Shown here one piece after another: positions 6,926 to 40,003 of a DNA stretch of 40,003 nt. A model generated the notes under the pieces. That model did no database searches. It was not told the DNA's origin and saw nothing but the letters and a program-made list of their open reading frames with translations. The translations under genes and the position numbers were made by a program. The DNA comes from a virus. How positions within the stretch are numbered: the first letter of the stretch is position 1; each line of letters begins with the position of its first letter. The stretch spans positions 1-40,003 of the IMG/VR virus record IMGVR_UViG_3300021509_000004; one strand, 5' to 3'.

Positions 6926-7240
6926 ATGACGACAATAAATGTGCCGCAGGCCATCATCTCAGTGCGCTGTCCCCTGTGCGGGCAGATGATAGGCTGGAAT
7001 GTCTTTGCAGCCCACCTCGTTGAGAAGCACGGCGCTAACCCGGCCAGCACGCAGGAACATCGAGACGTGCGCGTGCCCGGCAGGGCCAGCGGCGGGACGT
7101 ATGGCTTCGAGCCAGCGGAATACAATCCGCAGGATGTCGAGCATACCTGTCCGTTGTGCTGGCAGCGAGGTGTGGTAGCGCAATTTCCCAACCTGTCGGA
7201 TTTTGCCGACCATCTGCGCAACGTGCACGGGGCTAGCTAG
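6926..7240 (+). CDS. Double C2H2 zinc-finger protein, 104 aa
   Basis: Two C2H2-type fingers are visible. The first runs CPLCGQ to HLVEKH (about residues 15-36). The second runs CPLCWQRG to HLRNVH (about residues 75-101). They are joined by a basic, Gly/Pro-containing linker. Each finger has a Cys-x2-Cys pair and a closing His-x3/4-His, a fold that binds DNA or mediates protein contacts. Small C2H2 proteins are known in phages, sometimes as transcription or host-takeover factors. The specific role here is not known. It follows polA after a 38-base gap holding the leader hairpin and is separately provided with a strong AGGAGG. Confidence 0.75.
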   Translation: MTTINVPQAIISVRCPLCGQMIGWNVFAAHLVEKHGANPASTQEHRDVRVPGRASGGTYGFEPAEYNPQDVEHTCPLCWQRGVVAQFPNLSDFADHLRNVHGAS

Positions 7241-34774: not shown

Positions 34775-34815
34775 ATGTCACCTCCAAATTACTGAATCTC
34801 GACCATCCCGCAAGG

Positions 34816-34886
34816 TGGAGGAGAAGGGAATCGAACCCATACCTGCGGCGTGCAAAGCCGTTGCACTCCCATTATGCTACTCCCCC
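34816..34886 (-). tRNA. tRNA-Ala (anticodon TGC)
   Basis: Read on the minus strand, the acceptor stem GGGGGAG pairs with CTCCTCC including one G-U. The D arm GCAT/GTGC, anticodon stem CGGC/GCCG with loop TTTGCAC, and T arm around TTCGATT complete the cloverleaf. The T stem has one T-T mismatch. The anticodon is TGC. The discriminator is A and the full CCA is not encoded. It lies five bases from tRNA-Trp. Confidence 0.92.
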
Positions 34887-34891
34887 ACAGG

Positions 34892-34963
34892 CAAGGAGGG
34901 CAGGATTTGAACCTGCACTGCCGGTTTTGGAGACCGGTGTTCTGCCAATTAAACTACCTCCTT
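34892..34963 (-). tRNA. tRNA-Trp (anticodon CCA)
   Basis: On the minus strand the acceptor AAGGAGG pairs perfectly with CCTCCTT, the anticodon stem CCGGT/ACCGG carries loop CTCCAAA, and the T stem GCAGG/CCTGC encloses TTCAAAT. The D stem has three pairs. The discriminator is G and CCA is not encoded. Its 5' end overlaps the last ten bases, including the stop codon, of the basic protein gene at 34954. Confidence 0.93.
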
Positions 34964-36956: not shown

Positions 36957-37077
36957 ATGTTCCCTCCCCCTTGACTTGCGACTGCCGCCGATGTCTTGCG
37001 CTTTTTGTGTGACTAACTTACTTGACATAACTTCTCGTCACCTAGCTAGACTTCGACGGTCTTGCCCCCTAGCTTGT

Positions 37078-37118
37078 CATCCGCGCCGCGCAGCACTTAA
37101 TTCGGTGCGGCGCGGATG
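37078..37118. repeat. Perfect 12-bp GC hairpin
   Basis: CATCCGCGCCGC (37078-37089) is perfectly complementary to 37107-37118 around an AT-containing loop; GCAC/GTGC can close the loop further. Its ATCCGCGC core recurs in the next hairpin. Confidence 0.8.
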
Positions 37119-37125
37119 CTTGTCA

Positions 37126-37158
37126 ATCCGCGCCATTCATTTCATTCATTGCGCGGAT
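37126..37158. repeat. 8-bp hairpin sharing the ATCCGCGC core
   Basis: ATCCGCGC (37126-37133) pairs with GCGCGGAT (37151-37158) across a loop made of ATTC/ATTT repeats. With the preceding hairpin this gives four copies of the same 8-mer, two in each orientation, within 80 bases, like binding-site iterons. Confidence 0.7.
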
Positions 37159-37159
37159 G

Positions 37160-37276
37160 GGCGGGCAGGCGAGATTCTGCTAACATTTGACTTCTTGCAT
37201 AGCATCACGCCCGCGACTGAGGCGGCAGCCGAATCGCGGGCGTGATTGCACGCTAACCGCATCTCGCCTGCCCGCC
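37160..37276. repeat. Nested dyad: 16-bp outer and 13-bp inner perfect arms
   Basis: GGCGGGCAGGCGAGAT (37160-37175) is perfectly complementary to 37261-37276. Inside it, ATCACGCCCGCGA (37204-37216) is perfectly complementary to 37234-37246, with a 17-base loop. GCTAAC occurs as a direct repeat next to both outer arms (about 37178 and 37252). It could extrude as a cruciform or fold as an RNA with two coaxial stems. Confidence 0.85.
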
Positions 37277-37373
37277 ATTGGAAAAAATATTCACTCTCTC
37301 TATATACTACTAACATTGAAGCATTTTTATGTAAAGTAAAGAGTAGACATAAGTGACGAGTTTTGATTGTATG

Positions 37374-37433
37374 GCGAAGAAAGTCCCTTCAGGTGCGTGG
37401 GCTGCCGCCCACCTTCTTCGGGACTTTCTTCGC
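37374..37433. repeat. Perfect 14-bp hairpin with inner 6-bp stem
   Basis: GCGAAGAAAGTCCC (37374-37387) is perfectly complementary to 37420-37433. Inside, GTGGGC and GCCCAC form a second stem with a four-base loop. There is no T-tract on either strand, so it looks more like a structured RNA than a terminator. Confidence 0.8.
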
Positions 37434-37460
37434 AACTTAGATTTGCTTTAGTAATTTTGA

Positions 37461-37498
37461 AAGCTATGAAAGTTTCGTTATGCATTCTTGCATAGCTT
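37461..37498. repeat. 8-bp hairpin AAGCTATG/CATAGCTT
   Basis: AAGCTATG (37461-37468) pairs with CATAGCTT (37491-37498). The flanking CTTAG (37436-37440) and CTAAG (37500-37504) can add an outer stem. It directly follows the 14-bp hairpin. Confidence 0.6.
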
Positions 37499-37523
37499 GC
37501 TAAGTGCCTCGCCTTGTTTAGCT

Positions 37524-38025
37524 TGTCACACAAACAGGGCCTTGCATTTCGCCCATCTCTCGCAAATTGCCCCCCGCTTTGTGGGAAAATCCTACAAATT
37601 ACGGGCGTAATTTCCGCGACTTGCCCTAAATCTCAGCCGAATTTCACCCAACTTTGGCCTGATACACCGTCCACCATCACCATCGCCAGCGCCATCACCC
37701 CCCATCATCGCCGCTCGCTCGCCAACGCGGGAGGGGCGGAGGAGGCGGGGGGTAGCTATGCCTTGATGTTGAGCAGGCAAGTCAAGACATTGGCCTTTGC
37801 GCTATGCTAGATTTTTGACGGTAGGGAAAGGGAAAGCTCGACCGTCTTCTGTGTGCTATGTCACACAACAAGGCCAATTGCTTTTTGCCTTTGCTAGTCT
37901 AGACTTTGGCCTTGCCTTTGCTATGTCCAAAGCTTGCTCTGTTTGTGTGACAAGCTTGACAAAGCAAGGCAAGGGAAAGGCCAAAGCTTGCTATGCTTGC
38001 CTTGCTTGCTATGCTTGTCACACAA
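37524..38025. repeat. Four copies of TGTCACACAA (iteron-like)
   Basis: Copies lie at 37524-37533, 37859-37868 and 38016-38025 on the plus strand and at 37943-37952 in inverted orientation. The second and fourth share the 19-base block TGTCACACAACAAGGCCAA. Three of the four lie within 170 bases. They may be binding sites of a phage initiator or regulator. Confidence 0.65.
37986..38017. repeat. Direct repeat GCTTGCTATGCTTG, 18-bp period
   Basis: Two exact 14-base copies (37986-37999 and 38004-38017) are separated by four bases. They belong to a wider family of CTTGC/CAAAGC elements in 37780-38040. There is no regular repeat-spacer pattern, so this is not CRISPR. Confidence 0.7.
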
Positions 38026-38184
38026 CAAGGCCAAAAGGCCAAAGGCGTGTAAATACCTAAACCGTTTTAGATGATATATAATTGGTGTGGCCAACAAAGT
38101 CAAAACATAGCGCAAAGCACAAAACAAACGTCAACCGTATTCATACGATTTAGTATAAATTTGCCCAAAAACGGCATTTTTCAC

Positions 38185-38213
38185 TTGACAAGATAAACAA
38201 AAAGTGCTTAAAT
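38185..38213 (+). promoter_or_regulatory. Candidate sigma70-type promoter of the right-end operon
   Basis: A consensus -35 TTGACA (38185-38190) is followed after 17 bases by TTAAAT (38208-38213), four of six matches to TATAAT. The gene at 38268 starts about 50 bases later, behind a short GGAAAC/GTTTTCC hairpin and AGGGGG. The surroundings are AT-rich. Confidence 0.45.
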
Positions 38214-38267
38214 ATAGGTGGCCAGAATAGGAAACGCGCGTTTTCCTTCACGAAAGGGGGTAGAATT

Positions 38268-38669
38268 ATGTTAAGCTTAAAAACGCATATAACTAGATGG
38301 AATAAACAAGATTTAATACTTGCCTCTAAACTTCAGCAAAAGCACATTGCGCTATTAAAAGCTTTTGGCGTTAACTATATTGACCATAGCGAAAGCAAGC
38401 TCAAACGTCTAAAGAAGAAAGTTAACAAGGGAATGGTAAAGAAAGCGATAACAAGAGGTTACCTCTTTGAGGTTCATAATAATAGAGGCAAAGCTTTGCG
38501 CTATTGTTATCGCTATGGTGTTACCTGTATAGCAATAGAGGCAAGCGAAAAAGGCATAACTGTTATAACTGTTTGGCATAACGCCAAAGACGATAATCAC
38601 GAAACCTTGAGACAAGGCCAATACAATTGCCAGCTAACTGATATAGCGAAAGCTTATCAGTTATGTTAA
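38268..38669 (+). CDS. Basic hypothetical protein, 133 aa
   Basis: It is the first gene of the rightward right-end block, with AGGGGG eight bases before its ATG. The first half is helical and Lys-rich (LILASKLQQKHIALLKAF; KLKRLKKKVNKGMVKKAITRG). The second half alternates beta strands (YLFEVHNNRGKAL, VTCIAIEASEKGITVITVWH). A helix-plus-beta basic protein at the edge of an iteron-rich region might bind that DNA; this is a guess from position. Codon use is AT-richer than in the other modules. No family is recognised. Confidence 0.65.
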   Translation: MLSLKTHITRWNKQDLILASKLQQKHIALLKAFGVNYIDHSESKLKRLKKKVNKGMVKKAITRGYLFEVHNNRGKALRYCYRYGVTCIAIEASEKGITVITVWHNAKDDNHETLRQGQYNCQLTDIAKAYQLC

Positions 38670-38710
38670 GTTAGCGTTCACTTTTTTGCCAGATATATGG
38701 AGGGATTGCT

Positions 38711-39214
38711 ATGTCTACACGTATACCTGGAAACAATAGGCCACCAACAAAGCGAAAACCTGTTGGCGTTAGTGCTCTAAGGTTTGCCAAAGGTTTAAAG
38801 AATACCACACCAACAAAAACAGGCAAACCTGTTAAATCCGGTAGAGCACACGTTATAATCAAGACCATTACCTTTACACAGCATAGGCCAACAAGTTGGA
38901 AAGTTGAAAAGGCCAGACAAGCACAAACCGGTAGCTACAAGCTTGTCGCTTTCGCTACATACGTATCAGCAAGACGCTATTTAGAAAACGCTATTGAGGC
39001 CAGCAATAGCAGGACAGTCAAAAAGGCCAGCATTATACTTAAATACGCAAAGCAAAATTGGCCTCAAGGTTTAATTGCGTTTTACGTCTATGTAGAATAT
39101 TGGCGAAACAATGAGGGAAACGTTAATCCTAGGTATTTTAGAATGGGATTGCCTTTGGATTGCTTGACCATTAGACGTAAACGCAAAGGCCAATATGAGC
39201 AGGTAGCTATATAA
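38711..39214 (+). CDS. Basic hypothetical protein, 167 aa
   Basis: A strong GGAGGG lies seven bases before the ATG. The first 45 residues are very basic and Pro/Thr/Lys-rich (RPPTKRKPVGV ... TPTKTGKPVKSGRA), likely disordered and nucleic-acid binding. The rest is a compact domain with strands HVIIKTITF and YKLVAFATY, helices (SARRYLENAIEAS, KKASIILKYAKQ) and the strand pair LIAFYVYVEYW ... YFRMGLPLDCLTI. No family is recognised. The DNA of this gene contains seven copies of AGGCCA or TGGCCT, in several reading frames. Confidence 0.65.
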   Translation: MSTRIPGNNRPPTKRKPVGVSALRFAKGLKNTTPTKTGKPVKSGRAHVIIKTITFTQHRPTSWKVEKARQAQTGSYKLVAFATYVSARRYLENAIEASNSRTVKKASIILKYAKQNWPQGLIAFYVYVEYWRNNEGNVNPRYFRMGLPLDCLTIRRKRKGQYEQVAI

Positions 39215-39227
39215 TGGAGGCCAAACG

Positions 39228-39575
39228 ATGAAAACCTATGACTTGCCAACAATCGAGATACCGCAAAGAATTGGAGGCCACAAGGTTTTGTCTTATGATG
39301 CCTTGCTCGAAAGGTATGAGCAAACGTCTAACAAGACGCCAAACGCTATATCGGCATTTACTGGAGGCAACAGCATAGATTTGGACGTGTTAGTGGACAA
39401 AGGCATTATAACAGAAGACATTAAAGACGCTATCACAACAATGGTGGCCTATGAAGGCGGCTATCTTAACGATGAAAAGGCATACCATAAGGCAAGGATG
39501 AAGTTTAACAGGTTTATGAAGAACAAAGTCCCAACATTAGCTAAATGTGCAAAGGCCGGTTTACTGGAGTTATGA
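39228..39575 (+). CDS. Hypothetical protein, 115 aa
   Basis: The ATG follows GGAGGCC with good spacing. After a short start with a PxIExP-like segment, the product is mostly helical (SYDALLERYEQTS, DLDVLVDKGIITEDIKDAITTMVAYEGG, EKAYHKARMKFNRFMKNKVPTLAKCAKAG), giving a small acidic-to-basic helical protein. No motif is recognised. It ends in an ATGA-type junction with the membrane protein gene, suggesting coupled translation. Confidence 0.6.
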   Translation: MKTYDLPTIEIPQRIGGHKVLSYDALLERYEQTSNKTPNAISAFTGGNSIDLDVLVDKGIITEDIKDAITTMVAYEGGYLNDEKAYHKARMKFNRFMKNKVPTLAKCAKAGLLEL

Positions 39576-39811
39576 TGAAGAGGCCAAAGCTTATACCACA
39601 ACACAAAGCTTTAGCACAAGGGACGATATTAACGTTAGCGATTATACAAGGTAGCTCATATATAGGCCAATGCTATGCTATTGGCGTTAAATCCCACTTG
39701 CTATATCTCGGTTTTGGTGTATTGCGCCCGGTTTTAATTGGCATAGTTATCATTGGCCTGGTGTGGGGATGGATTAAAATCACGTTAGATTATGTGAAGA
39801 AAGGGGGTTGA
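39575..39811 (+). CDS. Small two-TM membrane protein, 78 aa
   Basis: ATG 39575 is preferred because GGAG (39566-39569) is five bases upstream; ATG 39572 is an alternative. The product has a polar start (MKRPKLIPQHKALAQG), a first moderately hydrophobic helix (TILTLAIIQGSSYIGQCYAIGV) and a second, strongly hydrophobic helix (VLRPVLIGIVIIGLVWGWIKITL). A basic end (DYVKKGG) suggests a cytoplasmic C-terminus. Function is unknown. Confidence 0.6.
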   Translation: MKRPKLIPQHKALAQGTILTLAIIQGSSYIGQCYAIGVKSHLLYLGFGVLRPVLIGIVIIGLVWGWIKITLDYVKKGG

Positions 39812-39813
39812 CG

Positions 39814-40003
39814 ATGCGAAAGCATTATCACGTTTCAGAAGGTTTCCTAGGATGTTATCCCGAAAACAATGTGGCCTTTGCCAGCAAGGATGATGCATTG
39901 GCATACCTTCACGATGTGCTGGCCTATTGGGATGATGTCGGGGAAACGATGATTTGTGTGTGCAATGAGGACGAACACAAGGTTTATGAGATGTTGGGTT
40001 CTA
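39814..40003 (+). CDS. Hypothetical protein, 3' end cut by window
   Basis: The ATG at 39814 follows AGGGGG. The 63 visible residues start MRKHYHVSEGFLGCYPENN and continue with an acidic helical segment (SKDDALAYLHDVLAYWDDVGE) and the strand MICVCNEDEHKVYEML, then run off the window. The layout (strand, helix, strand) resembles small phage proteins that carry a short H-Y-H-V-x-E-G start, but no family is recognised. It continues the rightward right-end operon. Confidence 0.6.
   Translation, partial: MRKHYHVSEGFLGCYPENNVAFASKDDALAYLHDVLAYWDDVGETMICVCNEDEHKVYEMLGS

Follow-up and report, generated by a model that had tools for sequence, protein, structure and literature searches.

A local excess of the hexamer AGGCCA over the control region and early genes of an uncultured tailed phage

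The closest working analogue of the locus described here is the stoperator array of cluster A mycobacteriophages (L5, TipsytheTRex), in which 13-bp sites occur genome-wide in promoters and short intergenic spaces, are oriented with transcription and have a known repressor (PMC9283540). The window, that is, the whole stretch of 40,003 bases analyzed here, resembles these genomes in that more than 20 copies of a short asymmetric site are present in one phage genome (23 copies of AGGCCA within 2.4 kb). Unlike the 13-bp stoperators, however, the AGGCCA sites are 6 bp long and are confined to a single stretch of 2.4-3.3 kb, 15 of the 23 are located inside genes, both orientations are found within rightward genes, with no strand preference (15:8 in the window, P 0.21, and 11:12 in a relative), and no repressor match was detected among the proteins scanned in this incomplete window. 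Thus, two defining features of stoperators, namely orientation and the genome-wide promoter and intergenic distribution, fail in this case.

DNA uptake sequences and Chi are genome-wide features of bacterial chromosomes, and Chi is additionally orientation-dependent. The AGGCCA sites share with them a short exact word, high density and the turnover of single copies, but unlike DNA uptake sequences, HIP1-like words or Chi, the word is restricted to a single region of the phage; a Chi-like recombination site was rejected given that the 15:8 and 11:12 ratios show no strand-oriented distribution. Restriction-site avoidance in phages, the stated topic of PMC12602166, is present in an extreme form in the same genome, where it shapes the available GGCC contexts. 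Avoidance removes words, however, and simulations of it fall short of the excess that a single word reaches here in a single stretch.

Genome layout and the control region

The left contig end falls within the helicase gene (Table 1). A relative, IMGVR_UViG_3300005099_000077 (51,048 bases), is about 81% identical across most of the window and, given the 91-base overlap of its ends, is probably circular and complete. The GC content of the right 2.4 kb is 42.9%, compared with 53% in the remaining window. Seven AGGCCA sites lie in the right part of the control region, and the hole in the array overlies the first early gene, which is better conserved than any other in the stretch. The promoter ahead of this gene was not listed by the promoter scan because position 2 of its second hexamer is not A; at the same place, the relative carries TTGACA-17-TATAAT. 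For the gene listed with 88 aa, the relative's version starts at the homolog of position 39578.

Conserved G+C-rich hairpins are predicted in the control region (37078-37118, 37160-37276 and 37374-37433, within 37078-37435); in 9 predicted pairs, both bases differ between the two phages, and there was no Rfam match at the gathering threshold. The sequence TTGTCACACAA is present five times (37005, 37523, 37858, 37943 and 38015, on both strands and with 0-1 mismatch) across 1 kb of the control region, with related copies in the relative, and a C- and G-rich segment of ~75 bp (37673-37745) is nearly unchanged between both phages inside diverged intergenic DNA. A search for the host through tRNA similarity was uninformative, with 74-89% identity to many different genomes. 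Beyond the right end of the window, the relative (L014:722-1825 and L014:3496-5891, both on the minus strand) encodes one protein with weak matches to sigma-70 region 4, along with phiEco32-like COOH.NH2 ligase and RimK-like (S6 glutaminyl transferase) proteins.

Table 1. Features of the window and of the AGGCCA array
Feature	Position	Strand	Remarks
Window	40,003 bases		entire IMG/VR record IMGVR_UViG_3300021509_000004, uncultured tailed phage
Replication genes	left	+	helicase (cut by contig end), exonuclease, primase, DNA polymerase
Tail, capsid, portal, terminase genes	middle	-	
Two phage tRNA genes	34814-34963	-	Ala(TGC), Trp(CCA)
Divergent intergenic control region	37029..38267		between leftward late genes and rightward small early genes at right end; ORF map, alignment
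AGGCCA array	37655..40003	both	23 sites, 3.7 expected
Array sites, first part			37655-, 37791-, 37871+, 37907-, 37978+, 38028+, 38036+, 38615+
Array sites, second part			38738+, 38885+, 38910+, 38997+, 39024+, 39059-, 39187+, 39218+
Array sites, third part			39275+, 39445-, 39581+, 39664+, 39754-, 39872-, 39920-
Array hole	38042..38614		flanking sites start 579 b apart (589 b in relative); spans promoter and most of first early gene
Sigma-70-like promoter	38185..38213	+	TTGACA-17-TTAAAT, ahead of first early gene; read from alignment
First early gene, 133 aa	38268..38669	+	98% identical in relative; weak match to phrog_1905 (unknown function)
Early gene, 167 aa, basic	38711..39214	+	81% identical in relative; no confident family
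Early gene, 115 aa	39228..39575	+	no family match
Early gene, 88 aa as listed	39545..39811	+	hydrophobic stretches; overlaps preceding frame
Early gene	39814..40002	+	truncated by contig end

Size, locality and recurrence of the excess

In positions 37,601-40,003, the 23 copies of AGGCCA, about one every 100 bp when both orientations are counted, compare with 1.6, 3.7 and 10.3 expected under Markov models of order 1, 2 and 3, respectively, trained on the region, and this word is the top hexamer of the stretch (order-2 z of 10.0). Order-2 simulations (n=400) gave a mean of 3.9 and a maximum of 11 copies, with no hexamer above z 6.8, and order-3 simulations (n=300) gave 10.4 +/- 3.2, with a maximum of 19. 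A preliminary description of this DNA had counted 15 AGGCCA and 8 TGGCCT among 26 GGCC sites, to which our recount agrees to the base (the others being two TGGCCA and one AGGCCG); its expectation of less than one copy is near a zero-order figure, and 1.6-3.7, from orders 1 and 2, is fairer. The same description had named two outcomes that would speak against it, an excess throughout the genome and no excess over a third-order model. Neither was observed: the other 37.6 kb of the window contain 32 copies, with 34.7 expected (order 2), and about 4 sd remain above the third order in the window and 5.5 sd in the relative. Outside the homologous region of the relative, 51 copies were seen and 50.0 expected. 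Since the rest of the window is at the expected number, the excess is local as well as real, and an uptake- or HIP1-like genome-wide word was rejected on these counts.

When 2.4-kb windows were slid along the genomes, AGGCCA was the best hexamer genome-wide in both phages. Other words elsewhere in both genomes attain z of 7-8.7, so that z by itself does not single out AGGCCA, which is unusual through its exactness, frame independence and recurrence. Its one-mismatch neighbors are scarcely enriched (28 vs 24 expected in the window and 36 vs 29 in the relative), which favors an exact word. The base 3' of the word is A in 34 of 50 sites and T in one, and past the adjacent bases the flanks of these 50 sites are mostly diffuse. 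Spacing of the sites is Poisson-like; regular or helical spacing was considered and rejected, with a gap CV of 1.1-1.2 and no phase.

The enrichment recurs in the one related genome, where the homologous 3 kb contain 23 copies, compared with 4.5 expected, AGGCCA again is the top hexamer (z 8.7), and 23 of the 29 GGCC are in the AGGCCA context. In the site-by-site alignment, 10 of the 23 window sites are kept (0.43, compared with 0.39 for hexamers in general), individual sites being conserved no better than their neighbors; 13 sites in the window and 11 in the relative are without an exact counterpart, where roughly 2-3 would be expected in each. Equal density with 10 of 23 positions in common implies that individual positions turn over at a maintained density. 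The early stretch as a whole diverges from the relative much like the remaining genome. In the relative, the array continues as far as about rel_rc 41,010, roughly 0.9 kb more, and thus the array, whose range in the preliminary description stops at the last base of the window, probably extends past the right end of the window. The evidence for the array comes from these two related genomes: searches via the terminase, the polymerase and the early proteins showed only one further genome covering the stretch, INPHARED yielded neither a DNA match nor a match for the first early protein, and a triple-pattern scan of IMG/VR for other array-bearing phages was insensitive, the relative itself being absent among the matches listed.

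Coding constraint and restriction-site avoidance

As the preliminary description had stated, the word is found in non-coding DNA (8 of the 23 sites), in all three codon frames (frames 0/1/2 with 3/3/4 sites in the plus orientation and 1/3/1 in the minus orientation) and in both orientations; the use of all codon frames without orientation preference argues for double-stranded DNA and against RNA. The five early genes contain 15 AGGCCA in the window and 13 in the relative, compared with 2.8 and 3.0 under synonymous codon shuffling, and 0 of 2000 shuffles reached the observed count; with a palindrome penalty added, about 3 are still expected. Coding DNA also has more GGCC than expected (17 vs 7.6 in the window, 13 vs 7.0 in the relative). 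A codon cause, already discounted in that description, and an amino-acid cause are dismissed by the shuffles with and without the penalty.

The main rival explanation requires no protein that reads the word. Under it, AT-rich flanks and the loss of palindromic contexts (AGGCCT, CGGCCG, GGGCCC and, in the window, TGGCCA) would leave AGGCCA/TGGCCT as the usual setting of GGCC, and duplications over short distances within the low-complexity control region would add further copies. We consider this explanation somewhat unlikely, notwithstanding several facts that agree with it. Of the 64 six-base palindromes, 27 are absent from both genomes; GATC is likewise absent (91 kb together), CATG occurs twice in each, and GGWCC, CYCGRG, GRGCYC and GASTC are absent or nearly so, which suggests a host with many restriction systems. 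The early stretch is under the same bans (27 palindromes, 0 seen vs 11.6 and 16.3 expected; GATC plus CATG, 0 vs about 15). AGGCCT, CGGCCG and GGGCCC are excluded from both genomes, and for 89% of the GGC trinucleotides in the early stretch of the window the preceding base is A or T, so that the prevalence of AGGCCA among GGCC sites is to a large extent ordinary; thus, the dominance at the right end (23 of 26) was counted correctly in the preliminary description but is partly due to restriction-site scrubbing, which that description missed.

Simulations limit how much scrubbing can achieve. With 43 forbidden words, the order-2 model yields only 5.0 +/- 2.2 copies in the window and 5.8 +/- 2.4 in the relative, and the most stringent one, a third-order model that was trained on the stretch and also bars the forbidden words, yields 14.5 +/- 3.8 and 10.6 +/- 3.1, compared with 23 and 23 observed; being trained on the sites themselves, the latter model is partly circular and bounds the surprise from below. 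Scrubbing as the sole cause was rejected since these simulations fall short of 23, and the shuffle with the palindrome penalty, the over-representation of GGCC in coding DNA and the lack of an AGGCCA excess in the equally scrubbed remainder of both genomes likewise speak against the composition-and-scrubbing account. The counts from the most stringent model and the enrichment of other words, such as AAGCTT and ATAGCG, in the same stretch are in line with that account.

ATAGCG is present there in 11 and 12 copies. AAGCTT occurs 10 times in the early stretch (37930-39611; 2.8 expected), 16 times in that of the relative (2.4 expected) and once in the remaining window (13.8 expected), where it is avoided; elsewhere in the relative, it is not avoided (20 vs 16.1). 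Nine of the 10 AAGCTT copies are conserved in the relative, the opposite of the AGGCCA turnover. AGCC/GGCT is found once in 38001-40000, compared with 12-30 per 2 kb elsewhere and 13.1 expected by codon shuffle, and is lower in the relative too; this deficit coincides exactly with the AGGCCA-excess stretch. A targeted A-to-G change from AGCC to GGCC, an idea derived from the deficit, was rejected: the alignment contains no AAGCCA/AGGCCA site differences and four AGGCCA/AGACCA differences.

A predicted reader of the word and the remaining alternatives

We tentatively favor a dispersed array of recognition sites for a predicted DNA-binding protein, the function being inferred. The exact non-palindromic hexamer, usually followed by A, is dispersed over the control region and the early operon, and selection would act on how many sites the stretch holds and not on where they lie; a sequence-specific double-strand DNA-binding protein, possibly a phage early protein, a virion protein or a host factor, would load at many sites, and the loading might compact, silence or protect the region or mark it for replication. 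That the array covers the divergent control region and the early genes, where one would expect regulation, agrees with this reading. A binding site for a phage protein, one of the possibilities raised in the preliminary description, is still the best fit, but no protein that reads the word was found: among the proteins scanned, there was no such binding protein, homolog or structure, AlphaFold models of two early proteins have mean pLDDT of 43 and 41, and no known family fits the array. Candidate binders would be the early proteins encoded at 38268-38669 and 38711-39214 and a zinc-finger-like protein of 104 aa (6926-7240). The idea that the 2135-aa protein contains an N4-like virion RNA polymerase was rejected, with no match. 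In the literature, AGGCCA/TGGCCT was encountered only in papers that, judging by title and abstract, seem unrelated. A bolder and unlikely version of the protein-read array is that the early and control region is marked by dense six-base sites read by density, not position, by a nucleoid-like or silencing protein, perhaps jointly with AAGCTT and the exclusion of AGCC; as an address code for a region, this would differ from operators, stoperators, uptake words and Chi.

Non-palindromic six-base modification and restriction sites exist, and AGGCCA could be a methyltransferase site or a BREX- or type III-like site, with the array serving protection or modification-dependent regulation. The heavy restriction pressure on this lineage and the tolerance in the same stretch of AAGCTT, avoided in the remaining window, are compatible with such a signal. 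Restriction pressure, however, depletes sites and does not enrich them, AGGCCA is at a neutral number in the remaining genome, and no methyltransferase or restriction-related match was detected among the proteins scanned, which makes a modification signal quite improbable; a restriction-modification recognition site as such was rejected, the word being not depleted but neutral elsewhere and in excess here.

It appears similarly hard to sustain that duplication or gene conversion dispersed a longer unit, of which AGGCCA is the remaining core. The intergenic DNA does contain short repeats (TGTCACACAACAAGGCCA twice and TTGCCTTTGCTA), but the scarcity of one-mismatch copies, the diffuse flanks and the Poisson-like spacing make the dispersed micro-repeat of the preliminary description unlikely as the whole cause, and the genic sites are compatible with the frames of proteins that the relative has in conserved form. 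An origin of the AT-rich stretch in a replicon with AGGCCA as a genome-wide, uptake-sequence- or HIP1-like word, which would agree with the drop in GC from 53% to 43% and with word usage unlike that of the remaining genome, is very improbable, given that the stretch shows the scrubbing of the whole phage and ordinary divergence from the relative, and that scans for triple AGGCCAA in viral contigs and triple AAGGCCAA in prokaryote genomes gave scattered hits among the matches listed, the densest clusters inspected among them being mostly one-strand codon-spaced repeats.

This case shows how a true word excess can be separated from the side effects of restriction scrubbing. If the word is indeed read by a protein, the phage would use word density to label a single genome region, with single sites turning over freely, and such an array would be missed by motif finders that expect fixed positions.
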